DNA of 35,109 nt from a virus. Location of the stretch: positions 1-35,109 of the IMG/VR virus record IMGVR_UViG_3300034061_005220, one strand, 5' to 3'. The notes under the pieces are model-generated. The model had not been told where the DNA came from. It ran no database searches and was given only the letters and a program-made list of their open reading frames with translations. How positions within the stretch are numbered: the first letter of the stretch is position 1; each line of letters opens with the position of its first letter. A program made the position numbers and the translations under genes. This document shows, piece after piece, positions 3,977-27,401 of the stretch.

Positions 3977-4588
3977 ATGCAGGATTTCGACGCAGTAAGG
4001 GCTCAGTTTTTCGAGCCGACCGGAGAAGACGCTCCCGACTACGGCATGTACCGTCCCAGCGCCACCGAGATCGCGATCGCTGTTGGCGGCGTGAAGGTCG
4101 CCAGCTTTGGGTCGGGTACTACCGGCGCCTCGCCGCGGTGTGTTCATACTGGCGGTCACTCACCGGCGACCAACGCTGCTGGCACTGACGCGACGCCGGT
4201 AGTCACCGAAACGTACATCGCCGAGATCCTCGTGCCGACCGCGATGCTCATGACCGGGTTCGCCCTGTTCAACGGCAGCGTCGCCAGCGGCAACATCAAG
4301 ATCGGCCTCTACAGCAAGGCCGGTGCGGTTCTCGCGCAGTCCGCTTCGACGGCGATGTCGGGTACGGACGCCTTCCAGCGCGTGCCGCTCACGGCAACGT
4401 ACCAGCTGGCCCCGGGCACCTACTACATCGGCCTGCAGGTCGACAACACGACGGCCCGCTTCAACACCCACACGTTCGGCAACTTCGGCGCATCGAAGAA
4501 GACTGGCGAGACGTACGGCACGCTCACCACGATCACGCCGCCGACGACGTTCACCACGGCTCTCGGCCCGATGGGCGGCCTCTACTAA
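3977..4588 (+). CDS. Small beta-rich virion protein, possible adhesin
   Basis: A 203-residue protein with AGGAGG seven bases before the ATG. The first ~45 residues (MQDFDAVRAQFFEPTGEDAP and GMYRPSATEIAIAVGG) look like an attachment segment. The rest is Thr/Gly/Ala-rich with alternating hydrophobics (TAMLMTGFALFNGSVASGNIKIGLYSKAG and APGTYYIGLQVDN), the pattern of a jelly-roll or carbohydrate-binding beta sandwich. No membrane segment, signal peptide or catalytic motif. It sits between the collar fibre and the giant spike, so a decoration or receptor-binding role is plausible, but no family was recognised. Confidence 0.6.
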   Translation: MQDFDAVRAQFFEPTGEDAPDYGMYRPSATEIAIAVGGVKVASFGSGTTGASPRCVHTGGHSPATNAAGTDATPVVTETYIAEILVPTAMLMTGFALFNGSVASGNIKIGLYSKAGAVLAQSASTAMSGTDAFQRVPLTATYQLAPGTYYIGLQVDNTTARFNTHTFGNFGASKKTGETYGTLTTITPPTTFTTALGPMGGLY

Positions 4589-4601
4589 CAACGGCGGGGC
4601 T

Positions 4602-4617
4602 TTACCCGGGAAGGTAA
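4602..4617. repeat. P16 palindrome copy, perfect, over a ribosome site
   Basis: TTACC, spacer CGGGAA, GGTAA, with one more T/A pair outside. It ends three bases before the ATG at 4621, and its right arm is the Shine-Dalgarno element. Confidence 0.85.
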
Positions 4618-4620
4618 ATC

Positions 4621-5004
4621 ATGTCGAATAACCGGATCATGTTCGACGACGGCACGACGGAGACCGCTGTCGTCGCCCACGACAACCCTTTGCCGACTGC
4701 TATTGTCGATAGCGCAACCGGCCTCGAGGTCTCCTTTGGCTTTACCCCGCTGGGTATCACCACCAAGACCACGACGTTGGTTAAGGCTGGTGCAGGTATG
4801 GTCGGCGACATTACGATCAATGCCACCGGCACGGTTGACACGATCACCGTGTACGACGCGCTGACGGCAGTCGGCACGCCGCTGGCGACTATCACCGCGC
4901 CAACCGTGGGCATGAAGTTCTGCGAGCTTTACAAGTTCTCCGTAGGCCTCACGATCGTCACGGGCGGCACGACAGCAGGCAACTACACGGTCTCGTTCCA
5001 GTGA
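4621..5004 (+). CDS. Small beta-rich protein, unknown function
   Basis: A 127-residue protein rich in Thr, Val and Gly with repeated beta-strand alternation (GDITINATGTVDTITVYDAL and FSVGLTIVTGGTTAGNYTVSF). The composition and the Gly-Gly-Thr-Thr turn near the C-terminus are those of small phage decoration or fibre-associated proteins. No family recognised. Its ribosome-binding site lies inside a perfect copy of the P16 palindrome (4602-4617), whose right arm ends three bases before the ATG, so initiation may be controlled by RNA folding or by a bound protein. A second copy of the palindrome lies inside the gene at 4742. Confidence 0.55.
   Translation: MSNNRIMFDDGTTETAVVAHDNPLPTAIVDSATGLEVSFGFTPLGITTKTTTLVKAGAGMVGDITINATGTVDTITVYDALTAVGTPLATITAPTVGMKFCELYKFSVGLTIVTGGTTAGNYTVSFQ
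4742..4757. repeat. P16 palindrome copy
   Basis: TTACC, spacer CCGCTG, GGTAT. One mismatch. Inside the 127-residue gene. Confidence 0.65.
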
Positions 5005-5130
5005 GCCTGACGCGCAAACTACTAAGCGGCGCGGCGCGACTTATAACGCGCCCGCTGACCACAACACAGGAAGCTCAAGTGTGGGCGTGGGGTATGGGGC
5101 TTTGACAGCTCGTTAGAAGGAAGCGCCACA
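5005..5130. other. Intergenic gap with a strong GC hairpin
   Basis: This 126-base gap holds no ORF. GGCGCG (5033-5038) pairs with CGCGCC (5047-5052) around the loop ACTTATAA. No T-tract follows. TTGACA occurs at 5102-5107, but no matching -10 precedes the start at 5131. The hairpin could be an attenuator, an RNA processing site or a mark of a phage promoter; none can be proven here. Confidence 0.4.
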
Positions 5131-5811
5131 ATGGCTTTAACTCCGCTTTTCACTGACGGCTGCGACACCTGTTCTACGTCGTACGCTGAAACGGGCACCA
5201 TCGAGACGAGCAATCTCTACGTCGAGATCCTGCTCCCGATTGACGCTTCGACGCTCGCTGTGCAGATCACGGGCACGTGGACGGCGACGCTCTTGTTTGA
5301 GGGCACGGTCAATGGCGATGACTGGTTCTCTGTGGACATGCAGCCGCTCCCTTCGGGCCTGCAGGTAAATTCAGCGACTTCGAACGGTGTGTGGCAAGGC
5401 AACGTCGCCGGCTACTCTAAGTTCCGTGTGCGTACGACGGCGATTACACTCGAGGCAGATGTTTCGATCAGGGTCACGTCTGGCCCCGCGACGTTGCCTG
5501 TGTCGACCGATGATACGTCGGCGCTTACGTGGGCTCGCAGCGCCGTCACGCTTACTGGCGCTACCGACCAAGTGTTGCTCGCAGCTGACGCCAGTCGTCG
5601 AGCGATTATGCTTTACAACCGCGACACCAACGATCTCGCGCGCTACGACATCGCAGGACAGTCGATCAACGCCGCCGCTGATGAAGGCATTCCGCTCAAC
5701 GCTGGGATCTCTCTCCACAGCTACAGTGGGCAAGACGCCCCCACGGGCACGATTACGATTACGGGTACCGCTGGCAACATCATTACTGTGTACGCCGGCA
5801 CGACCGCGTAA
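5131..5811 (+). CDS. Beta-rich structural protein, unknown function
   Basis: A 226-residue protein with GAAGGAAG upstream of the ATG. The N-terminal part (FTDGCDTCSTSYAETGTIETSNLYVEILLPID) contains a CDTC pair, unusual among these otherwise Cys-poor structural genes. Beta-sandwich-like stretches follow (VQITGTWTATLLFEGTVNGDDW; FRVRTTAITLEADVSIRVTSGPATLP), and a second repeat-like module at the C-terminus (QVLLAADASRRAIMLYNRD, GTITITGTAGNIITVYAGT). The pattern F-E-G-T-V-N-G-D-D-W is one I associate with phage decoration proteins. Position just before the spike suggests a virion surface or tail-tip component. Family not identified. Confidence 0.55.
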   Translation: MALTPLFTDGCDTCSTSYAETGTIETSNLYVEILLPIDASTLAVQITGTWTATLLFEGTVNGDDWFSVDMQPLPSGLQVNSATSNGVWQGNVAGYSKFRVRTTAITLEADVSIRVTSGPATLPVSTDDTSALTWARSAVTLTGATDQVLLAADASRRAIMLYNRDTNDLARYDIAGQSINAAADEGIPLNAGISLHSYSGQDAPTGTITITGTAGNIITVYAGTTA

Positions 5812-5824
5812 CCTCTAGAGGTAA
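5809..5824. repeat. P16 palindrome copy over the spike ribosome site
   Basis: TAACC, spacer TCTAGA, GGTAA. Core ACCTCTAGAGGT is a perfect 12-bp palindrome. It holds the stop TAA of the upstream gene and ends three bases before the spike ATG. Confidence 0.75.
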
Positions 5825-5827
5825 CAC

Positions 5828-8800
5828 ATGAGTATCAACCTCGGCTCTCTTCCGTTACCTTTTGCGGTTACCAACAAAGCAGCTCTGAGCGCACTTGGGA
5901 CGATCGCAAGGTCTGTACTAGTAAAAGACCGCACCACTGTCGGAGATAACGGCGGCGGCCTCTTTACGTTCCGCACCGGAGATCAGTCGGCGTACATCAC
6001 CGCTGACCCGCAGGGGGGAGTATGGGTCGCGCCGGATAGCGATCCGACGGGTGCGTCTGGTGCGTGGCAGCGGCTGTATGCCGGAGCCTTGAACCTGCGT
6101 TGGTTTGGTGGTGTGGGCAACAACTCAACCGACAACCAGCCTGCGTGGGCTTCTATCGACACGTACGTCGCAACACTGAACAGTGGCAGGCAAGAGGCGG
6201 CGGAGGTGTTTGTCCCCGCCGGTATCTACAAGCAGTCTGCGACGACGTTGGCGTCGAGCTACATCATCCGTGGCGAGGGCGATGAGGCGACCGAGTTCCG
6301 CCCCATGACTTCGGCGCAGGCGCACATTTTCCAATTCACAGGCCCCGTCGCCCAGATGCGGGACTTCGGTATCCTTGGGTGGGCGACCCGCACTCCCGCA
6401 GATTTTGCCTTGGTGGGCATCATCTCCGATGGCGGAGAATATGAGTTCACAAACTATCGTGTCTATAATTGTGTGGAGCCCTTCTGGCACAAGCGTGGTC
6501 GCCGCTACAACAACCACACAGGATCGATTGGTGTGTTGGGTGAAGGCGGCATCGGCATTCACCTTGCTGGCGTGGACGGCGCGGCCAACGCGCTGACGGC
6601 GCAAAGCTGCGTGAACAATCCCATCACGGCCCAGTCGTGGTCTGGCGGCGTCCTGACATTCACGACCACAAACGCGCACGGATTCGCTCCCTACGACTCT
6701 TTCATCATCTACGGGGCAACCCCCAGCGGTTACAATGGCACCTTCCGCGCCGTGTCGGGCACGACCGGCTCAACCCTGCGTGCTGAGTTGGTGGCGGACC
6801 CCGGCGCTTCGTCTGTCCTCGGCACGATGACAGTCGCGACTTTTGTTGCGACCGATACGACTCGTGTGCGCCGCACTGCCAAGTTCAACATCTACGGATC
6901 AAGCCCCAACGGCTACAACGGCCAGTGGATTGCCAACACCGGAAGCACTGGCGCTACGTTGGTGGCGTGCCTGTCGAGCAACCCCGGCGCTTCGACGGTT
7001 CTGGGCACCTCGTCGGCGGCGCGTGGTTGGGGTGCAGTCACGTCGGAAACCCGCATCGGGCCGAAAGTAGCAGTCTACTCCGGCTCGTCTTCCGCGTCGC
7101 TGCAGAACCTCCTCGGCCAAAGCTGGTCAAGCGGTACGGTTACATACACGACGGAGTTTGAACCCAACATGGAGGTTGGCGATCAGTTCACGGTTCGCGG
7201 CTCCATCCCCACAGGGTACAACGGCACCTTTACGGCGACGGCAGTTGGTGAACGCGAAGTTTCTGCCGCGCTGGTCACGAATCCTAACCTGACGCCAAAC
7301 ACGTTGACATCTCAGACGTGGTTGAATGAAGTTGCAACGTACACCACCACCACCGCCCACGGCCTCGCTCCGGGCGATGTCTTCACCATTTCGGGAAGTG
7401 TCCCCACCGGCTACAGCGGCACCTTCACGGCAATTTCCGGCACCGCCGGATCGACCATAACAGCGGTCGTCTCCGTTGACCCCGGCGCGTCCTCGACGCT
7501 GGGTAATCTCATCGTCTACGGCGAAATCTACGGGCGCTACAACGGAACGGCAATCCTGCTCGACACCGACAACGGTGCCACCATCATCGAGAACTCGGAG
7601 ACGGGTTCATGCAACTACGCCATCCGCATCGCAGACACGCTGGGGCTTGGCGACCAAGATGGAGACAACTATCGAGGCACGGGATTCCTGAAGTTGCGGG
7701 GCATCACGACCGGCAACTGTGGCATAGCGGGCGTATCTATCGAAGCCAACGGACGCTCGTTCAAGGCGTTCAGTTCGTCCTTCAGTGCCCCCGGTGCGGA
7801 CAACGCGGATGGTGTCTACATCGACTCCAATCTTGCCTCTCCGCAGATTACCGGGTGTGAGTTTCACTCCTGTCGCGCCACCGGCATCCGCCTGCGGAAT
7901 GCCTACAGCCTCGCCGTCAAGGGGTCGATCTTCTCCGACATCGGCACACGTGGAGGAGGCACACCGGGTGTCGGCTTGCGGTGTGAGACGGGAGCGGCTG
8001 ATGTTTATTTCTCTGAGAACACGGTCAATCCCGACCTTCAACTGAACACTTCCGCCACGATGGACTACGCAGTCTTGCTGGCTGCTGATGATGGAGACGA
8101 CGCCTTCACGGGCACCGTGTATGTGGCGGCGAACACCATGCTCGACATGAACATCGCTGACTACGGCGATCTGTCTACTTCGGGCACTTTCTCTCTGGTC
8201 AACGACGACTTCGTTGTCGCCCCCTCGTCGTCCACGGCGGCGCAATTCCAAGCCCTTGTCAGCGCAAACGCCGTCGTGTGGATTACTGAGCCGTTCACGA
8301 ACACGTGGACGGAGACCTGTGATCTTTCCGGATTGAATGGCAAGAAGATCATCTCCCTGCCGTGCTACGAGCCAATTATTGTTTCTTCCGCAACCCCAGC
8401 AATTCGTGTTGGTGGCGACGACCATCGTTTCAATGGCGACTGGTGGATCAAGTGCTCCACTGAAACTTCCGTGGATACTCTTTGTGTTGAAGTAACTGCC
8501 AACTCGTATCGACACTACTGGGATACCTTCAAGCCGGAAGACTTCGGCATCGGTATGCAAGGCACGAAGGGTGTGATCCGCGAGATCATTACCCGCAACT
8601 TTGAGCCCCTGAACCTTCTATCGTTCGGCAAGCGGTTCTACTCATCCGACAGCAACTCTGAGATAGGCCTGCTGCGCGACGACCGCATCTACACGTCGAT
8701 CACGGACAGCGACGCCGACAACTGCATCATGTACTCCGTCGGGCCGAATGTCGGCTCCGGCGGCCTGATCGGGTACGAACACGGTGGCGGCCTCCTGTAC

Positions 8801-11593
8801 GGCGCAAAGCACGCACTGCATGTCTGGGGAAATGTTCCGATCCTGACGCAGTCGTGGTTGTCCAATGTCGTCACATACACGACGGAGGAGCCTCACGGCG
8901 TTCAGGTGGGCAACGAGTTTGTCATCACCAGCAGCGCGGGGACGGTGGCGGCAGGTATGGTCCTGACGGCACAAAGCTGGTTTGCGGGCGTTTTGAGTTA
9001 CACGACGACCTCTGCCCACGGACTGTCGCCGGGAGACATGTTCACGGTCGAGAACAGCAGCCCCAGCGGCTACAATGGAACCTACACGGCGATCACGGCA
9101 GCAGGTAGTTCGCTCACCGCCGCGAAGACGACTGGAGTCGGAGCCTCTGTCACTCTCGGTAATGTCGGCGGCTACAATGGAACTTTTGTCGCCATCGCAG
9201 GCACAACGGATCGGACGCTCAAGGCCACGATGAAACTTAATCCCGGCGCGTCCACGACGCTGGGCACATTCGGACCCGCCGCGACGGGTGTCTACAACTA
9301 CGCCCAGACGCCGCGCTCGATCCGTTGGGAGAACTTCACCCGTCGCGGCGGTACAAACACCAGCTTCAGGTTCAGTGCGGGCGCTGATGTTGCGATGATA
9401 AACTGCAAGAGCGACGACGCGGGTACTGCCTGCACGCAGACGGCCCAGTCGTGGTCTGGCGGCGTCTCCACGTTCGCACTTGCGACAGACGCGGGTGTGC
9501 GTATCGGCGACTACTTTTTTGTCGAAGGTGCAAACCCCTCGGGCTACCGGGGGACGCAGCTTGCTGTCAGTGGGACGACCGCGACGGCTGTGAAAGCCTC
9601 GACTGCTACCGATCCCGGCCTGACGCCCAACACGCTGACCGCGCAGACGCGTGCGGACAACGTGATGACGGCAGCAAGCTGGCTGTCCGGCACCGTGACA
9701 TTCACCTGCACGTCGCCGCATGGATTTGCGTCTGGTGACACCTTCATCATCTACGGTGCGACCAACGCCGCCTACAATGGCACGTACACCGCCACGACGG
9801 GAACGACGGGCTCGACGCTCACGGCCAACCTGACGAACAATCCGGGGGCGGCGTCCGGCTCCTTTGGCACCATCACCGTCGTGACGGCGACTACGACCTA
9901 CGCACACGACTTTCTTCGGACCAAGACCTTCACCACCGCTGGAAACACCCCGTCTGGTTACGACGGCACGTTCAAGTCGAACACGGGAACGACGGCCAGC
10001 ACTATCGTCTACTGTCTCAACAGTAATCCGGGGGCATGCACAGTCCCCGGCGTGATGACATCGTTGGGAACTTTCTACAGCGAAGGGCACGGCGTCCACC
10101 TTGAGCGTAACTTTCAAGGTGTGTTTTCGTGGATCGGTGGGCAGTTCCATGAGAACACCAACGGCTTCCGTAACGAGGCTATTAACGCTACGTCGGTGAC
10201 GGTCAAGGATACCCTGATCTACAACTCATCGAACAACGATCAGGCGGGCGTGTGGTCTGGCTACTATCAGGACCCTGCCTGCTCGAACGTGACTCTGGAG
10301 AACGTCACGTCGGGTACGCAGGATTCTTGGCGACCGGCGCGTCGGACAATCACGTTCACTGGTGTCCCCACTACCGGCGACACAATCACGTTCAACGGGA
10401 CGGTTGTGACGTGGCGAACGACCGCCGCCCTGCCAAACGAAATCACCATTCCGGGCACGGCGGCTTTGACCGCGCAGGCGTTGGCTGATTTCATCAACGG
10501 AAATAGCCAGAATGTGCTCTCGGTTATCGGCGCTCTTGTCAGTGACGCTGTCGTCACTGTCTTCCACTACCCCGGCACGGTGGGCAACAGCTATACGTTG
10601 GCGGAGGCCACAAGCAACTGCACGATCAGCGGCTCGCCGCTGGCGGGCGGAACCGGCACCGGCTTCCAGAAATACGGTTTCGAGGGCATCACTCACGGCC
10701 TCAGAAACTGCGTCATCATCAACTGTAACGGAAGGAACAACCTCTCTGGCGCGTTTTCACAGAACCAGTTCCAGTTCCCCGTCACATTCAAGATGACGGC
10801 AAGCGGCACGTTTGGCGGCTTCGCCAACGCGACGCGGTATGAAATCTTCTGTTGGAGCGGCGGCGGCGGGGGTGGCTCTGGCCGACGTGGTGCGGCGGCA
10901 TCGGCACGCTCTGGTGGTTTGGCAGGCGGCGGCACGGTCCCAACGCGCCTGTCGCTACCAGCGGCGGCTATCACGTTCCCCGTCACCGTCACGATTGGCG
11001 CGGGTGGCACGGGCGGCGCTGCGGTCGGTGTAGACGACACTAGCGGCAATGACGGTACTGCCGGTGGCAACACGACGTTCGGGACGTATTTGCAAGCACT
11101 CGGCGGCAATAAGGGCGTTGGCGGCGGCACGGCGGCGCTGAACCCTTACACCGCGTTGGGGGCGGCGACACAGGCGTCTGGGCGTTCATTCCCCGCTGCC
11201 ACCAGCGTCACGGCCTCGATCCTCGTCACCAACGCCAACGACAACAGCGGCCACGAACTTGGCGGCGGTGCAGGCGGCTCCGGTGGCTCCATCTCGACCG
11301 GCAACGCAGACCTCCTTGGCATCCAAGCCAACTACGCAGGGTTTGCCGATCCCGCTTTGTCGGCTCCCGTCGGCCCCGCCGCCGCAGACGTGGCAGGTAC
11401 AGCAGGATCGAACTCTGCGTTGGACTACATTGCAGGCTTCGGCGGCGGCGGCGGCGGCCCTCGCGCTGCGGGCGGTGCTGGTGGGCGCGGCTCTGGTGGT
11501 GGTGGTGGTGGCGCATCACTCAACGGTACGGCGTCTGGTGCCGGGGGGGCGGGCGGTGGAGGTCAGGTCACCATCATCGGCTATTCGGATTAG
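5828..11593 (+). CDS. Giant tail spike: pectate-lyase-like, FCCH-like repeats, Gly-rich tip
   Basis: A 1921-residue receptor-binding spike. Residues ~1-60 form an attachment region. Residues ~60-260 read as the start of a pectate-lyase-type beta helix (LRWFGGVGNNSTDNQPAW, then VFVPAGIYK, the classic D-x-x-A-x-x and 'P-x-G-x-Y' pattern), and beta-helix rungs resume at ~590-1000 (ITGCEFHSCRATGIRLRNA). Two clusters of ~65-75-residue repeats (~265-560 and ~1004-1411) follow the pattern AQSW-x(4)-LTFTT-x(2)-HG-x-APGD-x-F-x-I-x-G-x-x-P-x-GYNGT, like the FCCH domain reported in phage tail proteins. A GDTITFNGTVVTW module follows, then a glycine-rich tip with poly-Gly loops (~1670-1921). Probable role: binding and possibly cutting host surface polysaccharide. 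Catalytic residues cannot be assigned by eye. Its ribosome site lies in a P16 copy. Confidence 0.85.
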   Translation: MSINLGSLPLPFAVTNKAALSALGTIARSVLVKDRTTVGDNGGGLFTFRTGDQSAYITADPQGGVWVAPDSDPTGASGAWQRLYAGALNLRWFGGVGNNSTDNQPAWASIDTYVATLNSGRQEAAEVFVPAGIYKQSATTLASSYIIRGEGDEATEFRPMTSAQAHIFQFTGPVAQMRDFGILGWATRTPADFALVGIISDGGEYEFTNYRVYNCVEPFWHKRGRRYNNHTGSIGVLGEGGIGIHLAGVDGAANALTAQSCVNNPITAQSWSGGVLTFTTTNAHGFAPYDSFIIYGATPSGYNGTFRAVSGTTGSTLRAELVADPGASSVLGTMTVATFVATDTTRVRRTAKFNIYGSSPNGYNGQWIANTGSTGATLVACLSSNPGASTVLGTSSAARGWGAVTSETRIGPKVAVYSGSSSASLQNLLGQSWSSGTVTYTTEFEPNMEVGDQFTVRGSIPTGYNGTFTATAVGEREVSAALVTNPNLTPNTLTSQTWLNEVATYTTTTAHGLAPGDVFTISGSVPTGYSGTFTAISGTAGSTITAVVSVDPGASSTLGNLIVYGEIYGRYNGTAILLDTDNGATIIENSETGSCNYAIRIADTLGLGDQDGDNYRGTGFLKLRGITTGNCGIAGVSIEANGRSFKAFSSSFSAPGADNADGVYIDSNLASPQITGCEFHSCRATGIRLRNAYSLAVKGSIFSDIGTRGGGTPGVGLRCETGAADVYFSENTVNPDLQLNTSATMDYAVLLAADDGDDAFTGTVYVAANTMLDMNIADYGDLSTSGTFSLVNDDFVVAPSSSTAAQFQALVSANAVVWITEPFTNTWTETCDLSGLNGKKIISLPCYEPIIVSSATPAIRVGGDDHRFNGDWWIKCSTETSVDTLCVEVTANSYRHYWDTFKPEDFGIGMQGTKGVIREIITRNFEPLNLLSFGKRFYSSDSNSEIGLLRDDRIYTSITDSDADNCIMYSVGPNVGSGGLIGYEHGGGLLYGAKHALHVWGNVPILTQSWLSNVVTYTTEEPHGVQVGNEFVITSSAGTVAAGMVLTAQSWFAGVLSYTTTSAHGLSPGDMFTVENSSPSGYNGTYTAITAAGSSLTAAKTTGVGASVTLGNVGGYNGTFVAIAGTTDRTLKATMKLNPGASTTLGTFGPAATGVYNYAQTPRSIRWENFTRRGGTNTSFRFSAGADVAMINCKSDDAGTACTQTAQSWSGGVSTFALATDAGVRIGDYFFVEGANPSGYRGTQLAVSGTTATAVKASTATDPGLTPNTLTAQTRADNVMTAASWLSGTVTFTCTSPHGFASGDTFIIYGATNAAYNGTYTATTGTTGSTLTANLTNNPGAASGSFGTITVVTATTTYAHDFLRTKTFTTAGNTPSGYDGTFKSNTGTTASTIVYCLNSNPGACTVPGVMTSLGTFYSEGHGVHLERNFQGVFSWIGGQFHENTNGFRNEAINATSVTVKDTLIYNSSNNDQAGVWSGYYQDPACSNVTLENVTSGTQDSWRPARRTITFTGVPTTGDTITFNGTVVTWRTTAALPNEITIPGTAALTAQALADFINGNSQNVLSVIGALVSDAVVTVFHYPGTVGNSYTLAEATSNCTISGSPLAGGTGTGFQKYGFEGITHGLRNCVIINCNGRNNLSGAFSQNQFQFPVTFKMTASGTFGGFANATRYEIFCWSGGGGGGSGRRGAAASARSGGLAGGGTVPTRLSLPAAAITFPVTVTIGAGGTGGAAVGVDDTSGNDGTAGGNTTFGTYLQALGGNKGVGGGTAALNPYTALGAATQASGRSFPAATSVTASILVTNANDNSGHELGGGAGGSGGSISTGNADLLGIQANYAGFADPALSAPVGPAAADVAGTAGSNSALDYIAGFGGGGGGPRAAGGAGGRGSGGGGGGASLNGTASGAGGAGGGGQVTIIGYSD
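5855..5870. repeat. P16 palindrome copy, atypical spacer
   Basis: TTACC, spacer TTTTGC, GGTTA. One arm mismatch and no purine at the spacer end. Within the first codons of the spike gene. Confidence 0.45.
6614..7510 (+). repeat. FCCH-like repeat cluster 1 inside the spike gene
   Basis: Four consecutive in-frame modules of about 65-75 codons, beginning near 6614, 6831, 7108 and 7309. Shared landmarks are a QSW/QTW start, an 'AHG' turn, a GD-x-F strand, P-x-GYNGT (GYSGT in the fourth) and a DPGAS/NPGAS end with a following LG. The second lacks the QSW start and AHG turn. The copies are diverged, so the cluster grew by old duplication. Confidence 0.75.
8840..10060 (+). repeat. FCCH-like repeat cluster 2 inside the spike gene
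   Basis: Six further modules, two of them partial, starting near 8840, 8959, 9166, 9437, 9641 and 9878. They keep the QSW/ASW start, the GYNGT or GYDGT turn and the NPGA end. The module at 9166 has lost its first half. A 105-codon beta stretch without repeat landmarks separates 9270 from 9437 only briefly, so the cluster is nearly continuous. Confidence 0.72.
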
Positions 11594-11860: not shown

Positions 11861-12198
11861 TAACCGCTACAAAACAGTTCATGTTTGACCCGACCATCAA
11901 CCTCGGTCACATCCTGACCGCTCTTACTTTTCTGGTGGTTGGTACGGCGGGCTATGTCGCGCTCGACGGCAGGGTGGGCAACCTAGAGCGGTCGCATCGT
12001 GACGAGCAAGCGGTGCGCGCTTCCGCCGACAACGGCGTTGAGAACCGCTTATTGATCCGCATTACAGAACAACGCGCAGCGGCAGAGACAAGTCAGCTTC
12101 GTTTCTATGAAGACATCCGAGAAATTAAAGCCATCGTGCGCGAAGGCTTCCGCGACCTCGACACGAAGTTGGAAAAGAAAGCTGAGAAGGTGCGCTGA
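11857..12198 (+). CDS. Membrane-anchored coiled-coil protein of the lysis cassette
   Basis: A 113-residue protein with one hydrophobic segment at residues ~16-36 (LGHILTALTFLVVGTAGYVAL) and a long charged helix behind it (RVGNLERSHRDEQ through DIREIKAIVREGFRDLDTKLEKKAEK). This is the topology of inner-membrane spanin subunits and of some holin partners. It starts in an ATGA overlap with the previous gene and its stop overlaps the endolysin start (TGATG). No lipobox partner (outer-membrane spanin) was found nearby, so the spanin reading is only a hypothesis. Confidence 0.6.
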   Translation: MITATKQFMFDPTINLGHILTALTFLVVGTAGYVALDGRVGNLERSHRDEQAVRASADNGVENRLLIRITEQRAAAETSQLRFYEDIREIKAIVREGFRDLDTKLEKKAEKVR

Positions 12199-12776
12199 TG
12201 GCAACCAACAGAAAAGCATTCTTCGACGGCATCCGACCGGACCTGTTCGGCGGCACGCTCACGCAGGATCAAGTCAAAGGCATCGACGCCATCCTCGATG
12301 AGTGGGAGGTGCGCAAGCTGACGGACCTGCGCTGGCTGGCGTACATGCTGGCCACGACCTACCACGAGACCAACATGACGATGCAGCCGGTGAGAGAGGC
12401 GTACTGGCTGTCTGAGGGCTGGCGGCAACGGAACCTGCGCTATTACCCTTGGTACGGACGCGGCTACGTGCAGCTAACATGGGAAGAGAATTACAATAAG
12501 ATGGGCCGACTGCTCGGTGTCGATCTGCTGGGTAACCTTGACCTCGCCATGGACCCGCGCATCGCTGCCGCCATCATGTTCGAAGGCATGATGAAGGCAG
12601 ACAGCAGCGTGGGAGACTTCACCGGCAAGTGTCTCGAAATGTATTTCAACGACACGGTGGATGACCCGATTGGCGCACGCCGTATCATCAACGGGACTGA
12701 CAAAGCCGACCTGATCGCGGGCTACCATCATGGGTTCTTGAGCGATCTTCGATACGCACGCGGGGGGCCCGCCTGA
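12198..12776 (+). CDS. Endolysin, GH19 chitinase/lysozyme-like
   Basis: A 192-residue muralytic enzyme that would cut the glycan strands of peptidoglycan at the end of infection. The sequence shows the GH19-like landmarks of phage lysins: YHETNMTMQPVREAYWLSEGWR around residues 55-76, with Glu57 as the probable general acid, then YYPWYGRGYVQLTWEENY at ~82-99, the signature substrate-groove segment. The C-terminal part (DDPIGARRIINGTDKADLIAGYHHGFL) is the usual helical end with the R-R-I-I/V-N-G motif. There is no signal peptide, so export depends on the holin encoded directly downstream with a TGATG overlap. Confidence 0.85.
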   Translation: MATNRKAFFDGIRPDLFGGTLTQDQVKGIDAILDEWEVRKLTDLRWLAYMLATTYHETNMTMQPVREAYWLSEGWRQRNLRYYPWYGRGYVQLTWEENYNKMGRLLGVDLLGNLDLAMDPRIAAAIMFEGMMKADSSVGDFTGKCLEMYFNDTVDDPIGARRIINGTDKADLIAGYHHGFLSDLRYARGGPA

Positions 12777-16439: not shown

Positions 16440-17816
16440 ATGAGTGGTGGTTCCTCGGCTCCTGCCCCGCCCGACTATAGCGGCGTCGCCAATGCCTCCC
16501 GTGAAAGCGCGAAAGAATACGCTGCGATCATGCGCGAGCAGCTGGCGTGGGCGAAAGAGCAGTACGCCGACAACAAGGCGTTTGCCGACCAAGTCAAGGA
16601 TGTCTTTGCATCCGACATGCAGTTTAACTCGGAGACGGCGCGCAAGGATCGCGCCCGCTACGAGCAGTATTACCAGCCGCTGGAAAACGACCTTGTCGAC
16701 GACGCCAAGTCGTACGCGACGGACGAGCGCAAGGAGCTCGAGCGCGGCCGCAGCATGGGCACTGTCTCCCAGCAGTTCGACACTGCCGGCGAGGCGGCCA
16801 AGCGCCAGCTCGAAAGCTTCGGCATCGACCCGTCCGCTACGCGCTACGCGGCGCTCGACCTTGGCGTGAAGACCCAGAAGGCGGCGGCCATGGCTGCGGC
16901 GGCCAACCAGAGCGACGTGATGGTCGAAGACCGCGGCCGTGCCCTGCGTTCGGAGGCGATCAACGTCGGCAAGGGCTACCCCGGCCAGATCGCCGGCCAG
17001 TTCGGATCCTCCACTACAGGCGGCTCGGCGGGCGTGGGTGCCCAGAACAGCACTTACTCAGCGTCGGCGCCAGCTCTCGGCAACCCGGCGGCTTTCGGCG
17101 GCCTGCAGAACCAAGCGATCGGGCAATGGGGCAACACACTCAACAACCAGTACCAAAATCAGATCGCGCAGTACAACGCCAACAGCAGTCAGTCGTCGGG
17201 CATCGGCTCGACGCTGGGGTCGCTCGCTGGCATCGCTGGCGGCCTCTACATGATGTCCGACGAGCACGCGAAGGACAACATCGAGCCCATCGGCGAGACG
17301 TATGATGGCCAGGAGATCATCAAGTACAACCTCAAGGGCGACCCCAAAACCCAGATCGGCCTGTCGGCGCAGGAGACGGCCAAGCGCCGGCCTGAGGCGG
17401 TGGCCCGCGGGCGTGACGGCCTACTGCGGGTGAACTACGATCGCGCCCTGCCGACGGACGATACCCGCAGGGGTAACCGCTACGCTGAGGGTGGTGCCGT
17501 CTCCAGCTACCTCGACGAGTATCCGGAAGACCTGAGCGACGAAGCAGGCGAGTACGAGAACATGGACGGCGGCGTCGTCCCGCCGGAAATGTCTCCCTCG
17601 CGCGGCCGCGCCATCGACGATGTGCCGGCACAGACGTTCAGCCAGAACGGGCAGGCTGGTCCGAAGGCCGCCATCGACGTCGGGGAGTTCATCTTCCCGG
17701 AAGACGTGACGCGCTGGTACGGTGAAGAGAAACTCCAGAAGCTGATCGAGAAGGCCCGTCAGGCGAAGCAGGGAGCTACTGCCAAGCCCGAGATGCGCGC
17801 CGCCCTACCCGTATAG
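16440..17816 (+). CDS. Internal virion protein with S74-like Ser-Lys segment
   Basis: A 458-residue protein. The N-terminal ~190 residues are helical and charged (KEYAAIMREQLAWAKEQYAD; ERKELERGRSMGTVSQQFDT), and the middle is Gly/Ser/Asn/Gln-rich. From residue 272 it reads MSDEHAKDNIEPIG, then YDGQEIIKYNLKGDP, GLSAQETAKRRPEAV and RDGLLRVNYDRA. This matches the intramolecular chaperone of endosialidase type (peptidase S74): S-D-x-x-x-K with Ser273 and Lys278 five apart, followed by the 'G-L/F-x-A-Q-E' and 'V-x-Y' motifs. Family members cleave themselves before the Ser after folding a trimer. The C-terminal ~110 residues hold YAEGGAVSSY and end in a charged helix. Helical N-terminus and gene order suggest an internal or tail-tip protein. 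Confidence 0.65.
   Translation: MSGGSSAPAPPDYSGVANASRESAKEYAAIMREQLAWAKEQYADNKAFADQVKDVFASDMQFNSETARKDRARYEQYYQPLENDLVDDAKSYATDERKELERGRSMGTVSQQFDTAGEAAKRQLESFGIDPSATRYAALDLGVKTQKAAAMAAAANQSDVMVEDRGRALRSEAINVGKGYPGQIAGQFGSSTTGGSAGVGAQNSTYSASAPALGNPAAFGGLQNQAIGQWGNTLNNQYQNQIAQYNANSSQSSGIGSTLGSLAGIAGGLYMMSDEHAKDNIEPIGETYDGQEIIKYNLKGDPKTQIGLSAQETAKRRPEAVARGRDGLLRVNYDRALPTDDTRRGNRYAEGGAVSSYLDEYPEDLSDEAGEYENMDGGVVPPEMSPSRGRAIDDVPAQTFSQNGQAGPKAAIDVGEFIFPEDVTRWYGEEKLQKLIEKARQAKQGATAKPEMRAALPV
17461..17476. repeat. P16 palindrome copy
   Basis: ATACC, spacer CGCAGG, GGTAA. One mismatch. Inside the S74-like virion gene. Confidence 0.65.
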
Positions 17817-20714: not shown

Positions 20715-23700
20715 ATGGCCGTCGCGCCTCGTATCCTAGGCAACGCTCCTCCGGCTCCGCCGGTTGAAGATGGTGGGTCGCTGCTGCTCGACCTTGGAAA
20801 GACGTTTGGGGCGGGTGTCGTTGACCTAGGCGCCCAAGCCGCGGGCGGCCTCGCCGATCTACGCAACCCGACGAACATGGACGGGACGCCGCGCGACACG
20901 CAGCCAACCGAAGCCATGCGCGCGGCACAGGCACTGGGGAACGCGGCTGTTGAGGCGATCGACGACAGCCTTGCTGCCAAGAACCGCCGCGCCGGCGAGA
21001 GCGCCCTGATCCCAGCCGAGGAAGGCCAGCAGGCGTTTATGGAGGCGCCTTTTCGTGCCACCACGATGAAGGTGGCGCGCATGGCCCCGGCGCTAGTGAG
21101 CGCCTTCTTCCTCCCGCAAGGTTGGGCCGGTGTTGGTGCAGGCGCCGCGTTCTTCGGCACGCAGGGTGTGGCTCAGCAACTCAACGAGACCCGTAAACGT
21201 ATCGACGCGATGCCCGACGACCTCATGCAGGAGAAGTCCCCCATCTATCGGGATCTCCGCGCTGAGTACGACGAGCCTGAGGCCCGTGAGAAGTTCATCG
21301 CTGGGCAGAACGATTTTGTGTCGCTCCTGATGGCTGGCGGCGGCAACGCGATTGGCGGCGGCGCGCTGGCGCATGCGCTTAAAGGGCAGGCCGCCAAGAG
21401 CATACTCAAGGGCGCCGGCGTGGGTGTCCTTGATGGCGTGTCCGGTGGGGCTGCGTCGGGCGTCGGTATGGAGGGGGCCCGTCAGCGGGCGGATGTGCGC
21501 GGCGGCTTCAGTGAGAATTACGACCCGGATAAGCTCGCCCTTGCAGCCCTCAACGCTGGCTTCGAGGGTGCGGGGCTGGGTGGCGCGTTCGGCGCCGCTG
21601 GCTCGATGGGCGCTCGCCGCGACCGCGCTCGCGATCGCCTCAATGGCACCGAAGTCCCGCCGGGCGCACCGGACCCGGCGCAGACCGCTGCCCTCGTCAC
21701 CGACAACGAGCCAGACAGCACACGCACGCCGTCACCTCCCGAGGTAACGCCGCCGGCCGCCGGCGTCGCGACGGGCACGTTGGCCCAGCAGATCGAGGCT
21801 GAGCGTGCACGACAGGCTGCCGAAGCTACTCCGCCAGCAGCGGGCGCGCCGCCTGTCGTGCCCCCAACCGACATCACCAAGCCGCCGGGCTCCGAGCCGG
21901 GCATCCCCCCGATGCCGCGCGGTGTCGTGCCGCCTCCCCCTGCAGCTGGCCCAAGGGTGCCCAACCCGCGCACCGAGCAGCTCGTGCCGCCGCCCCCGAC
22001 GGACACGATGCTTGCCCCCGGCCGTCGCAAGGCACCGGCTGAGCGCACCGCTGTGCCGCTCGAGGAGGAAGTGGTTGCGCCGCCCCGCGTGACCGCCGAG
22101 CCGGAGATCCCCCTCCCCCCGGCCGAAGGCGCTCCGCTGCGCGCTGCAGAGGTGCAGGCCGCTGTCAGGGAGATGCCGCAGAAGGCCGCTGAGCCGCCCC
22201 CGTCGCCGCGCCCCACAGAAGCGCCGGCGCCAGCTCCCGAAAAGCCGGCACCGAAGGAGGCCCCCGAAGTCCCGAGAGGGATGCCCAAGGGCTCGACTTA
22301 CCTTGGGGACAACGCCAACGGCGAAGCTGTATGGCAGTACCCAGAGGGTGGTCCCCGTGCCTCTCGTGGCGCGGACAAAGTCCTGCGGGTTATGGCTGTA
22401 GGGGACGAGGTAATACCCCCGCGGTTCGAAGTCGTCGGCGAGAAGAAGGTCGAACTCACTTACCCCGAGCCGCTTGCCCCTGCGGGTAAAGCTGAAGAGG
22501 CTGACGCGCCCGTCGCGCAAGACAGGCTCGTGGCCGATAAAGCTGCTCCTGCTAAACTTGTCTCTGCGGAAGCGGGTAAGCCCCGTGTGTTCCGTGTTGA
22601 GAACACTTGGGCGAAGCAGCAGGAACAGGAGCGCAAAGCACGACAGGAAGAACTCGCGACCGAGCGCAAAAATGCAGCTGAGGCGAAGAGGAAGGTCGTC
22701 GCCCGCAAGGAGAACAAGACTACCCCCAACGAGAATAAGGCCCGAGAGTACATCACCGGCCGGCACCCGAAGTTGGTCGAGGATATTACCCGTGTGGGTA
22801 CGGTCGAAAGCAACGCGCTCAAGGGCGACGAAGCTGCCCAACGTGAGGTGGTGCAGTCGGCGGTGAAGCTTGTGGCCGACGCTAAAGAAGCAGGCGTTGA
22901 GATCCCGCAGCGGACGACGCGCGGCGCTAACACCAATCCGACGCCCTACACATCGCACCTGATCGAGACGGTCCGCTTTCTGAAGGCTGTCAAGGACGCA
23001 GCAAACCTAAAGACTGAGAGCAAGCGGAAGGCTGCTATCGCTGACGCTTTCACGAACTACATCACTGCCGAGCGCGCCCTCCGTTCAGGTGATTTGCAGG
23101 CTGCTGCTGCACGGCGCATTGCTGCGAACGAAGCCGCGAACGCGGGTAGCACACGCGCGAAAAACGAGAACGCGACCCGAGCTGAGGGAGAGCAGGCCGA
23201 CGCTGAGACAGCTAGAAAGAAACTCGGCGACGAGAAAGACCCCGACGACACCGACACCGATGCTGACAGCACGCCTCTCTTAGATGTCGCGCCGGCCCGC
23301 AAACTGACGGAAGCTGAAGAGCTGGCCGCGCTCATTAGAGAGCAGAGCGACGACGCTGCCCGTGAGAAGGCAACGGCTAAAAAGAAAAGCGCCGACGAAG
23401 CCGACGACACCAAGACCGACGCGCTCGATGCTGTGGTCGCGCGCGACGACGCTGACGTCGATCTTGCTGACCAGCGCGACGAGAGCTACTCCCAGCGCAT
23501 GGTTGGCTCGAAGCGGGCGCCGACCCAACGCCGGAAGACGACTGTCCGCGACGAGCTCGAGCCGTACCTGCAGAGGTACGAGAACAGCGACAAGCCGCTG
23601 CCCCGGCTGGCCGTGGCCATCATCCGCAAGGTCATCGACCGCGTCGGAGACACGCCCATCGAGGTCATGAGCCTCGACGAGTACAACGCCATGCGTGTCG

Positions 23701-26700
23701 CGGCTGGGCTCGATGTGCTCAAAAAGGACGTCGAGGGGATCTTCGGCTACAACTACGGGGGCCTGCAGGCGAACGGCACGCGCGGCACGATCCGCCTGTT
23801 CCCCGAGATGTACGGCACCGTCGCCGGTGGACCCCTGCGAGTAACGCTGCATGAGGCTGTGCACGCGGCGACAGCTCATGCTCTGCGCAACGACCCGAAG
23901 CTGTTCAACCAAGTAAATCTCATGATGGCGTGGGTCAAACTTAAGACCCGCAATACCAACCTGTCTGAGCGCGTCGGCAGTGAATACGGCATGCGGGACA
24001 AGGACCCGCTCGAGTTCGTCGCCGAAGCAATGGCCAACCCTAGCTTCCAGAAGCTGCTCTCGGAGATCGAGGTGCCGGCCTCGGTCGCACGTGCATGGGG
24101 CATCGAGCCGAAGGCCACGTCGGTCTGGAAGGCGTTGGTGGAGAAGGTCGTCGACTTCCTGAAGCTGCCCTTCCCGAAGGCGCAGTCGATGACGATGCTC
24201 GACGCCATCCTGCGCAAGAGCGACGACATGTTTGCCTACGAGCCCAAGGCAGCGAAGGGCCGCGACGCCGACGGGATGCTCGCGTACTCCGAGCGCACCG
24301 ACCGCATGAAGGCGGAGGTCGTCGACTTCACGCGTGAGGCGCCGCGCACGCTGCGCACCAAGCTGCGGGGTCTGGGGCTCAAGTTGGGCACGGTCATCCA
24401 GATCGGCGAGAGCGCCAACAGGCTGTTCGGCCCCGACAATCTGGGCACGCGCCTCAGCAACCTGCTGGGTAAAGCAGCCACTGAAAAGGAGCGCATCCTC
24501 AACAGCGGCGATCGCCAGCTCGTGGGGGATATGGCTGCCCTGCAACGCAAGACGTCGCCGGAGGCGTGGAACGACTTCTCGCGTTTCCTGCTCGACGAGA
24601 CGATGGCCGGCGTGTTTGCCGACGCCCCCGTGCCCAAGGGTGAGAGCGTCGCCCTGTGGCAGGGGCGCGCCCAGCACGCTGACCTGCAGCGCCGCCTCAA
24701 CGAGCTGCCGCCCGACCTGCGCGCCATGCGCAAGCGGATGCACGACTATTTCAGGGAGCGGCAGAACGACATCTCGAAGGACCTGATCAAGAACATCGTC
24801 CGCGTGATCAACGACGGCGTGCCGGACGACGCGTTGGCGATGAAGATCTTCGAGAACAAGCTCGACCCAGCTGAGAAGGCGATCCTCGAGAAGGACGCCG
24901 TGTTCAAGGCGATCCGCGACGCTCGGGCCATGTCGAAGATCAAAGGCCCCTACGTGCCGCTGATGCGCGAAGGCGACCACGTCGTGTCCGGCCGCTTCAC
25001 CATTACCTCGCCGGGTAACGCGACCCGTGTCGACGCGGCAGGCAAGCCCGACGACAACAGCAACATCTTCGAGTTCAAGACCAAGGCTGAGGCCAAGTCG
25101 TTCGCTGAGAACCAGACGCTCAAGGTGCTCAAGACCCAGCGCGTCTTCACCGACCCGGCCACCGGCGAGCGCTTCGTCGAGATCACGACTGCCGATGGCA
25201 CGGAGAAGTACAAGCTGACGGCGTCCGACGCTGCGTGGGGTGTCGCCGACGAGAAGTTCCGCGTCACGGTGCAGGACAAGTACCTCGCGTTCTTCGAGCG
25301 CGAAGTGCACGCCCGCCAACACCATGCCGAAATGTCGGCACGCAACGACGTGGTCATGGACGGCGTCGCTCCCCGACGCTGGGAACCGCACGGCGCCAAC
25401 TCGTCGTTCATGAGTGAGGCGTTCAACCAAGCGCTCAACTCTCTGCAGCAGCGCAAGGGGTTTCAGGAGCTGGACGCCGGTGCCAAGCGGCAGCTGGTCG
25501 ACCATCTCCGCAATGCGTCACTGGCTGCGATGGGATCCACCCGGGCGCAGAGCCGCCGCCTGCCGCGTACGTTCGTCGCCGGTGCCAGCACGGACATCAC
25601 CAGCACCACCGGCAAGTACGCCTCCTCGAGTGCCGGCTATCTCTCTAGGGCTCGCTTCCAGCCCCAGATCGACGCCACCCTTAAGGCGATGACGGACTAC
25701 AACAACGACTACGGCTACGAGGCGACCGAGCGCACTTACCCCCGCGGGCAAATCCTCAAGGAGCTCAAGGAGCGCGTCTACCGGCAGGGCGACCCGGAGC
25801 CGACGGGCATGTGGCATCAGGCGGGCAGCCGCCTCTTGCAGCTGTCGTTCCTCGACAAGCTGGCCAGCCCGGCGTTCCACATGATCAACGCGGCCGAGCC
25901 GTGGACCATCTCGATGCCCCTGCTGGCAGGGCGCTTCAAGGTGGGCCGCACGATGGCTGCGCTCAATCAGGCGTACCGGGACATCGGGGCGATGAGCGCC
26001 GCAGGTGCCGGCCTGAGCGACACGGTCAAGGCGTTCAAGACCGATCAGGGCCTCACCAATTACCTGACGAGGTTCCAAGACCGCCTGCGCAAGCTGCCCG
26101 ACGGCAAGCACATCGCGGATATGCTGGAGCACCTCTACGACGTCGGCCTGCTGTCCCGCGACGCCGGCATGGAGCTGGGGCGCATGTCGACGCCCAACTC
26201 GCCGCTGGTGGGCCGGGCGCTGGATCGAGCTGACCTGATGGCCCGGCAGGTGGGCACGGCGATCGAGAGCATCAACCGCACGGTCACTGCGGTCGCGGCC
26301 TACCGCCTTGAGTATGCCAAAACCAAGGACCACGCTCGGGCAAAGGCCTACGCTCAGGAGATCACGCACGACGCGATGGGCGACTACTCGAGCTGGAACG
26401 CCGCGCCGATCTTCAACCATGGCCTCGGTCGACTGGCACTGCAGTTCAAGAAGTACGCGCAGAAGACCTACTTCCTGCTCGGGAAGACAGCCGCCGCTGC
26501 GTTCAGGGGCGACGCTGAGGAAAGGCGAGCGGCGATGAAGGCGTTCGCTGGCATCATGGCCACGCACGCGACGCTGGCCGGCACGCTGGGACTGCCGATC
26601 GAAGCGATCAAGGTGGGCTTCATCACGGCCAACCTGCTGGGGATGACCAACTCTGGTTACGACGACTTCGAGCGCTGGACACGTGAGCTGGCGGCGTCGT

Positions 26701-27401
26701 CGCTGGGTGTGGCCGGTGGGCAGATCGTCACCCGGGGCTTGCCGCGGTACCTCGGGGTGGACCTCTCGAGCCGCTTCGGTCTGGAGAGCATGATCTTCCC
26801 GATGGGCGAGCCGAAGTCGCGCAAGCCCGAAGATCTGCTGGCTTACGCCGCCAAGGCGTTTGCCGGCGCGCCGATCAGCATGCTGACCGAGTACCCGGCC
26901 GGTGTGAAGGCGCTGTGGGAAGGGGACGTGGCGCTGGCCATGGAGAAGCTCGTACCCCTGAAGGTATGGGCCGACAGCATGCAGGCCTACCAGAAATACG
27001 AGAAGGGCAAGCAGACGCCGTCCGGGCGTGAGACGCTGTCGCCCTACTCGCCGGGCGAGGCAGCCATCAAGGTGCTGGGCTTTACCCCGGGTCGCGAAGC
27101 CGAGACCGGCGAGATGCGCGGCTCGCTCATGAACCAGCAGCGACAGGAACGCGAGGAACGCACGAAGCTGATCACCAAGTGGGTGCAGGCTACACCGGCA
27201 GAGAAGAGCGCTATGTGGGTTAAGATCCGCGAGTGGAACGCGGGCCAGCCCAAGGGTGCGCGCCTCGAGATGAAGGAGCTGACTGACAACCAGCAGCGCC
27301 GGATCCGCGAGACGAAGGATAGCAACAACGAGTTCGGGTTCCGTACGTCGACCCGCGACGCGCACATCCGCGAGGGCGTGCAATACTACAACGTGCGCTA
27401 G
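20715..27401 (+). CDS. Giant polyvalent internal protein with HEAVH metallopeptidase motif
   Basis: A 2228-residue protein, the largest in the window. Residues ~1-320 contain Gly/Ala-rich hydrophobic stretches (APALVSAFFLPQGWAGVGAG; LLMAGGGNAIGGGALAHALK) that could insert in membranes. A Pro-rich linker (~320-540) and a Lys/Glu/Ala-rich region (~640-930) follow. At residues 1046-1050 is HEAVH, the HExxH zinc site, with DPLEFVAEAMANP (Glu1100/Glu1104) as candidate third ligand, the usual spacing in phage 'large polyvalent protein' peptidases. The remaining ~1100 residues are helical. Family knowledge: such proteins are packaged, ejected with the DNA and may cut host targets or build the periplasmic channel. 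Its ribosome site is inside a P16 copy (20696-20711). Seven further copies lie inside the gene. Confidence 0.75.
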   Translation: MAVAPRILGNAPPAPPVEDGGSLLLDLGKTFGAGVVDLGAQAAGGLADLRNPTNMDGTPRDTQPTEAMRAAQALGNAAVEAIDDSLAAKNRRAGESALIPAEEGQQAFMEAPFRATTMKVARMAPALVSAFFLPQGWAGVGAGAAFFGTQGVAQQLNETRKRIDAMPDDLMQEKSPIYRDLRAEYDEPEAREKFIAGQNDFVSLLMAGGGNAIGGGALAHALKGQAAKSILKGAGVGVLDGVSGGAASGVGMEGARQRADVRGGFSENYDPDKLALAALNAGFEGAGLGGAFGAAGSMGARRDRARDRLNGTEVPPGAPDPAQTAALVTDNEPDSTRTPSPPEVTPPAAGVATGTLAQQIEAERARQAAEATPPAAGAPPVVPPTDITKPPGSEPGIPPMPRGVVPPPPAAGPRVPNPRTEQLVPPPPTDTMLAPGRRKAPAERTAVPLEEEVVAPPRVTAEPEIPLPPAEGAPLRAAEVQAAVREMPQKAAEPPPSPRPTEAPAPAPEKPAPKEAPEVPRGMPKGSTYLGDNANGEAVWQYPEGGPRASRGADKVLRVMAVGDEVIPPRFEVVGEKKVELTYPEPLAPAGKAEEADAPVAQDRLVADKAAPAKLVSAEAGKPRVFRVENTWAKQQEQERKARQEELATERKNAAEAKRKVVARKENKTTPNENKAREYITGRHPKLVEDITRVGTVESNALKGDEAAQREVVQSAVKLVADAKEAGVEIPQRTTRGANTNPTPYTSHLIETVRFLKAVKDAANLKTESKRKAAIADAFTNYITAERALRSGDLQAAAARRIAANEAANAGSTRAKNENATRAEGEQADAETARKKLGDEKDPDDTDTDADSTPLLDVAPARKLTEAEELAALIREQSDDAAREKATAKKKSADEADDTKTDALDAVVARDDADVDLADQRDESYSQRMVGSKRAPTQRRKTTVRDELEPYLQRYENSDKPLPRLAVAIIRKVIDRVGDTPIEVMSLDEYNAMRVAAGLDVLKKDVEGIFGYNYGGLQANGTRGTIRLFPEMYGTVAGGPLRVTLHEAVHAATAHALRNDPKLFNQVNLMMAWVKLKTRNTNLSERVGSEYGMRDKDPLEFVAEAMANPSFQKLLSEIEVPASVARAWGIEPKATSVWKALVEKVVDFLKLPFPKAQSMTMLDAILRKSDDMFAYEPKAAKGRDADGMLAYSERTDRMKAEVVDFTREAPRTLRTKLRGLGLKLGTVIQIGESANRLFGPDNLGTRLSNLLGKAATEKERILNSGDRQLVGDMAALQRKTSPEAWNDFSRFLLDETMAGVFADAPVPKGESVALWQGRAQHADLQRRLNELPPDLRAMRKRMHDYFRERQNDISKDLIKNIVRVINDGVPDDALAMKIFENKLDPAEKAILEKDAVFKAIRDARAMSKIKGPYVPLMREGDHVVSGRFTITSPGNATRVDAAGKPDDNSNIFEFKTKAEAKSFAENQTLKVLKTQRVFTDPATGERFVEITTADGTEKYKLTASDAAWGVADEKFRVTVQDKYLAFFEREVHARQHHAEMSARNDVVMDGVAPRRWEPHGANSSFMSEAFNQALNSLQQRKGFQELDAGAKRQLVDHLRNASLAAMGSTRAQSRRLPRTFVAGASTDITSTTGKYASSSAGYLSRARFQPQIDATLKAMTDYNNDYGYEATERTYPRGQILKELKERVYRQGDPEPTGMWHQAGSRLLQLSFLDKLASPAFHMINAAEPWTISMPLLAGRFKVGRTMAALNQAYRDIGAMSAAGAGLSDTVKAFKTDQGLTNYLTRFQDRLRKLPDGKHIADMLEHLYDVGLLSRDAGMELGRMSTPNSPLVGRALDRADLMARQVGTAIESINRTVTAVAAYRLEYAKTKDHARAKAYAQEITHDAMGDYSSWNAAPIFNHGLGRLALQFKKYAQKTYFLLGKTAAAAFRGDAEERRAAMKAFAGIMATHATLAGTLGLPIEAIKVGFITANLLGMTNSGYDDFERWTRELAASSLGVAGGQIVTRGLPRYLGVDLSSRFGLESMIFPMGEPKSRKPEDLLAYAAKAFAGAPISMLTEYPAGVKALWEGDVALAMEKLVPLKVWADSMQAYQKYEKGKQTPSGRETLSPYSPGEAAIKVLGFTPGREAETGEMRGSLMNQQRQEREERTKLITKWVQATPAEKSAMWVKIREWNAGQPKGARLEMKELTDNQQRRIRETKDSNNEFGFRTSTRDAHIREGVQYYNVR
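21732..21747. repeat. P16 palindrome copy
   Basis: TCACC, spacer TCCCGA, GGTAA. One mismatch. Inside the giant gene. Confidence 0.65.
22474..22489. repeat. P16 palindrome copy
   Basis: TTGCC, spacer CCTGCG, GGTAA. One mismatch. Inside the giant gene. Confidence 0.6.
22786..22801. repeat. P16 palindrome copy
   Basis: TTACC, spacer CGTGTG, GGTAC. One mismatch. Inside the giant gene. Confidence 0.65.
23564..23579. repeat. P16 palindrome copy (symmetric variant)
   Basis: GTACC, spacer TGCAGA, GGTAC. The two mismatches compensate, so the arms still pair: GTACCT with AGGTAC. Inside the giant gene. Confidence 0.6.
25003..25018. repeat. P16 palindrome copy, perfect
   Basis: TTACC, spacer TCGCCG, GGTAA. 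Both arms perfect. Inside the giant gene. Confidence 0.85.
25736..25751. repeat. P16 palindrome copy
   Basis: TTACC, spacer CCCGCG, GGCAA. One mismatch. Inside the giant gene. Confidence 0.55.
26060..26075. repeat. P16 palindrome copy (weak)
   Basis: TTACC, spacer TGACGA, GGTTC. Two mismatches in the right arm, core ACCT-N4-AGGT perfect. Inside the giant gene. Confidence 0.45.
26952..26967. repeat. P16 palindrome copy (weak)
   Basis: GTACC, spacer CCTGAA, GGTAT. One mismatch in each arm. Inside the giant gene. Confidence 0.45.

Follow-up and report, generated by a model that had tools for sequence, protein, structure and literature searches.

A tailspike-like protein of 1921 amino acids carries nine copies of a small beta-barrel module, arranged in two clusters at residues 266-561 and 1005-1410, and one of the nine is nested inside another. 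It is encoded in the virus record IMGVR_UViG_3300034061_005220, which comprises 35,109 bases, may be a fragment and was analyzed over its whole length (the window). The open reading frame (positions 5828..11593, plus strand, as are all features below) starts with ATG, is uninterrupted and has an AGAGG-type ribosome site just upstream. By analogy with characterized phage proteins, we give a probability of about one half to the reading in which the product serves a podovirus-like phage as its tailspike, reads or degrades a polysaccharide and uses its barrels as accessory glycan-contact modules.

Number and position of the modules

Two profile models of the module were used, the first seeded with the six full copies of the spike and the second built from 78 modules of other phages, with none from the window. 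This external model matched ten stretches of the spike at 19 to 70 bits, four in block 1 (residues 267-328, 335-390, 432-488 and 494-555) and six in block 2 (1009-1034, 1047-1106, 1114-1143, 1205-1266, 1281-1342 and 1350-1404). In leave-one-out tests each full copy scored 60 to 100 bits against a model of the other five, and the top domain among 500 shuffles reached 6.9 bits with the spike-built model. The fifth stretch corresponds to model positions 4-29 and the seventh to positions 34-62, with a complete copy (model positions 1-60) between them. They are two halves of one module around a complete one, so that the ten stretches count as nine modules, one of them nested. The original prediction of about ten repeats in two blocks was thereby borne out. 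The half-whole-half pattern was absent elsewhere in the fetched sequence set.

Block 1 begins with the complete module R1 (residues 266-333, 6623..6826, 70 bits with the external model), followed by R2 (residues 335-395, 6830..7012, 25 bits), in which the first strand is missing or degenerate. Both blocks are interrupted by a stretch without module match, in block 1 at residues 396-428 (7013..7111), which, read by eye only, is possibly a beta-helix rung. R3 (residues 429-492, 7112..7303, 63 bits) and the complete R4 (residues 493-561, 7304..7510, 58 bits) then close the block. In block 2, the first half of the split module, R5 (residues 1005-1038, 8840..8941), is followed by the complete nested copy R6 (residues 1046-1112, 8963..9163, 52 bits) and by the second half, R6b (residues 1113-1147, 9164..9268). 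The second interruption, residues 1149-1203 (9272..9436), possibly consists of rungs, again as judged by eye only, and leads to R7 (residues 1204-1269, 9437..9634, 41 bits), the complete R8 (residues 1280-1349, 9665..9874, 68 bits) and R9 (residues 1350-1410, 9875..10057, 38 bits), whose first strand is, as in R2, missing or degenerate.

Fold and kinship of the module

AlphaFold2 modeled the R3-R4 pair, with 92 alignment rows, as small beta-barrels of about five strands per module at a mean pLDDT of 93, with R4 mostly above 90. That the repeats might be regular rungs of the helix is ruled out by these models. Structural alignment with VIA placed R4 on the FCCH barrels of the E1 enzymes UBA6 and UBA1 with Z 8-10 and an rmsd of 1.9-2.2 Å over 70-74 residues (UBA6, 7pvn: Z 10.1, 1.9 Å over 73; UBA1: Z 8-9.5). 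It also aligned R4 with the barrel of phi92 endosialidase (4hiz_B, residues 258-338; Z 8.7, 27% identity) and with that of EndoNF, the K1F endosialidase (residues 426-506; Z 7.7-7.9, 23-24% identity; 3gvj and 3ju4 Z 7.9). Foldseek alone gave weak E-values of 0.1-0.7 for the FCCH and endosialidase barrels, which is to be expected given how small the fold is.

On the sequence level, the top PDB profile match of the module was again phi92 endosialidase (4hiz, 3e-4). PF16190 (E1_FCCH) was matched at E≤1 by 11 of 23 module sequences from the window and its relatives, and PF12195 (End_beta_barrel) by nine of the 23 alignment members (best 7.5e-6). Among the phage relatives of the module, several score above the curated PF16190 cut-off, and a Pfam profile search of the 1921-residue spike itself returned neither family. 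The description of the repeats as FCCH-like was accordingly right with respect to fold, but the curated PF16190 profile fails to match the window protein. The module is predicted to share the barrel fold of the FCCH and of the EndoNF and phi92 endosialidases; we do not claim membership in the curated families. With these endosialidases, phage tailspikes in which the barrel is part of the catalytic region, the module family has detectable sequence kinship in addition to the fold, whereas the likeness to UBA1 and UBA6 implies no ubiquitin chemistry for the spike. The protein marks an FCCH/endosialidase-barrel family that both curated Pfam profiles miss here.

Conservation in the module falls on residues of the turns and of the core (W, F, GY-G), with no evident binding patch. 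Two motifs that had been described as kept were found to be kept in part. In the P-x-GYNGT landmark only two positions, the Y and the G that follows, never vary; P occurs in 7/8, N in 6/9 and T in 8/9, and the H-G turn of the AHG motif is intact in five of nine copies only. The repeats of the CV39L lectin (6gxs) carry a PSGYNGTF string like that of the module (E 0.05), probably by coincidence. For kinship with the insertion barrel of LKA1gp49 the evidence was inconsistent: 4ru4 reached E 7.8 in the search with the first module profile but was missing from that with the second.

Architecture of the spike outside the modules

The N-terminal part, residues 14-165 (5867..6322), was identified by AlphaFold2, profile and VIA comparisons as a tailspike cap followed by the first part of a pectate-lyase-like beta-helix (LNLRWFGG, VFVPAGIY). 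Its profile matches solved beta-helix tailspikes (5w5p at 2.9e-14, 2vbe at 6e-11, 5w6p at 1e-10) as well as glycan-active beta-helix enzymes, and the cap model aligned with 8iqe over 141 residues (VIA, Z 7.3). The AlphaFold model of residues 1-1004, whose alignment held cap rows only, was confident over residues ~11-165 only, with pLDDT ~73-93 over residues 11-150 and mostly below 50 past residue 172. Residues 166-264 (6323..6619) would hold the first beta-helix rungs, as expected from their place after the cap; model confidence is low here. After block 1 a right-handed beta-helix resumes at residues 575-733 (7550..8026), where PF13229 (Beta_helix) matched with 9.4e-8 and 32.3 bits (cut-off 25.9) when the segment was searched alone and with 3.5e-5 in the full-length scan. 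Since cap and helix entry lie before block 1 and the Beta_helix match after it, block 1 appears, from these profile matches, to interrupt a beta-helix.

Residues 791-1004 (8198..8839), which precede block 2, gave no profile matches and have no detectable relative; a low-pLDDT helix at 804-811 followed by strands suggests that a second beta-helix may start here. Profile scans gave no convincing match for the stretch just after block 2, and the flanks of the two blocks are dissimilar to each other. The proposal of one beta-helix split twice is thus supported at block 1, with helix on both sides, but not at block 2, whose flanks match nothing. Among the fetched ORFs there was no module-free homologue that could be aligned both before and after a module, and the exact loops that take up the barrels are those we infer. 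Further downstream, residues 1504-1613 (10337..10666) match a different phage domain, phrog_28344 (5e-8), which also occurs in proteins of ~430-440 amino acids in alphaproteobacterial genomes. The C-terminal glycine-rich domain at residues 1665-1916 (10820..11575; PF21722, 7.1e-12 to 4.7e-10, above cut-off) is likely the distal tip.

The barrel itself and single barrel insertions in beta-helix tailspikes are already known. In LKA1gp49, KP34gp57 and TspA the beta-helix run is broken by a barrel at residues 284-370, 103-203 and 337-411, respectively. In the depolymerases KP34gp57 (PMC10653864) and LKA1gp49 (PMC5701251) this insertion lines the substrate groove, and TspA of RcGTA likewise combines a helix run with a single barrel (PMC13420450). 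The LKA1gp49-type arrangement, a barrel within a helix run, is seen at block 1 from sequence-level evidence. Each of these proteins has one insertion, whereas the window spike has two clusters with nine modules, one of them nested; likewise, the endosialidases carry one barrel on a beta-propeller enzyme and the window spike nine on a beta-helix. Among the fetched sequences no other protein was found with either nine barrels or the nesting, which makes both unusual.

Spread and copy number of the module

Among the fetched phage sequences the module occurs in tail sheath, baseplate wedge, gpJ-like, propeller and capsid-neighbor proteins, and the FCCH/endosialidase-barrel family appears, from these matches, to be widespread in phage virion proteins and to act as a general, promiscuous plug-in. 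In a 290-residue protein matching a 211-position family, the module makes up most of the extra length. In some records, similar proteins of 287-291 residues from certevirus-like phages bear the name 'endosialidase', for which this barrel may be the sole ground. The module was seen, for example, in a capsid-neighbor protein of L013 (90-959) and in a tail sheath protein of L017 (5800-7209). The Ig-like domains of tailed phages are also optional insertions in many virion proteins but differ in fold from the module; such accessory domains are thought to bind carbohydrates weakly, according to a statement quoted in PMC9230969.

With a threshold of E<1e-3, the other fetched proteins had four stretches at most; at E<0.05 one protein of 1711 residues had seven. 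A comparison of copy number in related phages, as proposed earlier, showed that it varies from the nine modules seen here. Of 33 cap-bearing relatives, the 32 found via the cap had none, and the remaining one, L016, found via the module, had one. The L016 protein (4324-6501) is a spike of 726 residues in which two cap-like matches were seen and, after a helix-like region, one module at residues 561-626. An additional cap match in L039 lies outside the 33 relatives counted.

Proposed role of the barrels

In the proposed mechanism the spike would probably form a trimer around a right-handed beta-helix and would read, perhaps also cleave, a polysaccharide of the cell surface. The nine FCCH-fold barrels would be plugged into it in two clusters, one into a loop of another, and would project from the helix, where they could deepen or wall the groove and might supply extra weak binding sites, and with them avidity. 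The K1F barrel contains one of the three polysialic-acid sites of its enzyme, and its loops discriminate hosts (PMC12632334). Through this endosialidase barrel, the earlier idea of receptor-reading modules is plausible; the alternative then offered, that the repeats adjust fiber length, is less natural for insertions inside a helix run. Counted against glycan contact is the finding that 32 of the 33 cap-bearing relatives manage without modules. Sugar binding is moreover not a necessary property of the module, because the virion proteins in which it occurs are mostly not thought to be receptor binders.

For the same reason, that it also decorates non-receptor virion proteins, a structural role is the main rival. 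The barrels would then act as braces of the trimer, shield the helix or make the spike longer and wider, all without sugar contact, which we hold possible but rather doubtful. It would agree with the conservation of turn and core positions in place of an evident binding patch, and the additional domains of sheath proteins have been proposed to stabilize the virion or to aid adhesion (PMC9230969). The nearest solved and studied module, the endosialidase barrel, is however a ligand site, and the insertions are clustered, with one nested, and do not form a regular head-to-tail stalk.

A more far-reaching version of the glycan-contact reading, which we regard as unlikely, is that a self-inserting, recombining barrel was made into an array by entering loops of the helix, in as many as four places, as well as other barrels; the array would offer a branched, multivalent surface for polysaccharide binding, and its copy number would set the host range. 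Single beta-barrel insertions in tailspikes help to shape the substrate groove. A spike with nine barrels, one of them nested, would show how far depolymerase-like proteins can be elaborated by repeated plugging of one domain, and would offer a test case for control of the polysaccharide range by module number or identity.

Divergence of the copies

Pairwise identity among the copies was 21-60% for protein and 33-62% for DNA, which makes recent tandem slippage or a collapse of the assembly unlikely; judged by this divergence, the copies appear to be old. In a small tree R2 and R9, each of which comes after a full copy, were paired with a support of 0.90. The similar copy order had raised the suspicion that a whole unit of beta-helix plus block was duplicated, and this was rejected, the similarity of the flanks not exceeding that of shuffles.

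It is improbable that recombination has spread the modules as mobile plug-ins of neutral or near-neutral effect, with a drifted copy number and little function. The wide, promiscuous spread, the degenerate copies R2 and R9, the nested copy and the presence of one or no copy in cap-bearing relatives would suit such an origin. All copies, however, have open frames and invariant Y, G and F positions at the mutual protein identity given above, so they were kept folded over a long divergence. An artefact, in which repeats were misjoined or beta-helix rungs misread as modules, is already largely refuted: although the record is metagenome-derived and contains repeats, the DNA identity between copies is just 33-62%, the frame is intact and the modules fold as barrels at pLDDT 93.

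Genomic setting

Searches with the whole spike, or with residues 1-264 or 562-1001 as queries, by megablast, tblastn and viral contig scans, returned no close homologues. In 149 Sphingomonadales genomes, and in a sample of 190 from the class to which a Phyllobacterium belongs, the spike found matches for its cap, its phrog_28344 domain and one stretch of its C-terminal part, and for nothing else. The nearest kin of the virion and DarB-like genes of the record is Rhizobium phage RHph_TM29, in the examined parts of which no barrel module was found. Going by this kinship, the host might, as a guess, be an alphaproteobacterium. The internal virion protein is 39% identical to its RHph_TM29 counterpart over its length, and a 2228-residue protein (20715-27401) 32.5% over 56%; the latter has a DarB-like antirestriction C-terminal region common to Rhizobium and Ochrobactrum phages. 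A GH19-type endolysin gene (12198-12776) lies shortly downstream of the spike gene, and a virion protein at 16440-17816, perhaps a second fiber, showed a match to Peptidase_S74 (endosialidase chaperone) below threshold.
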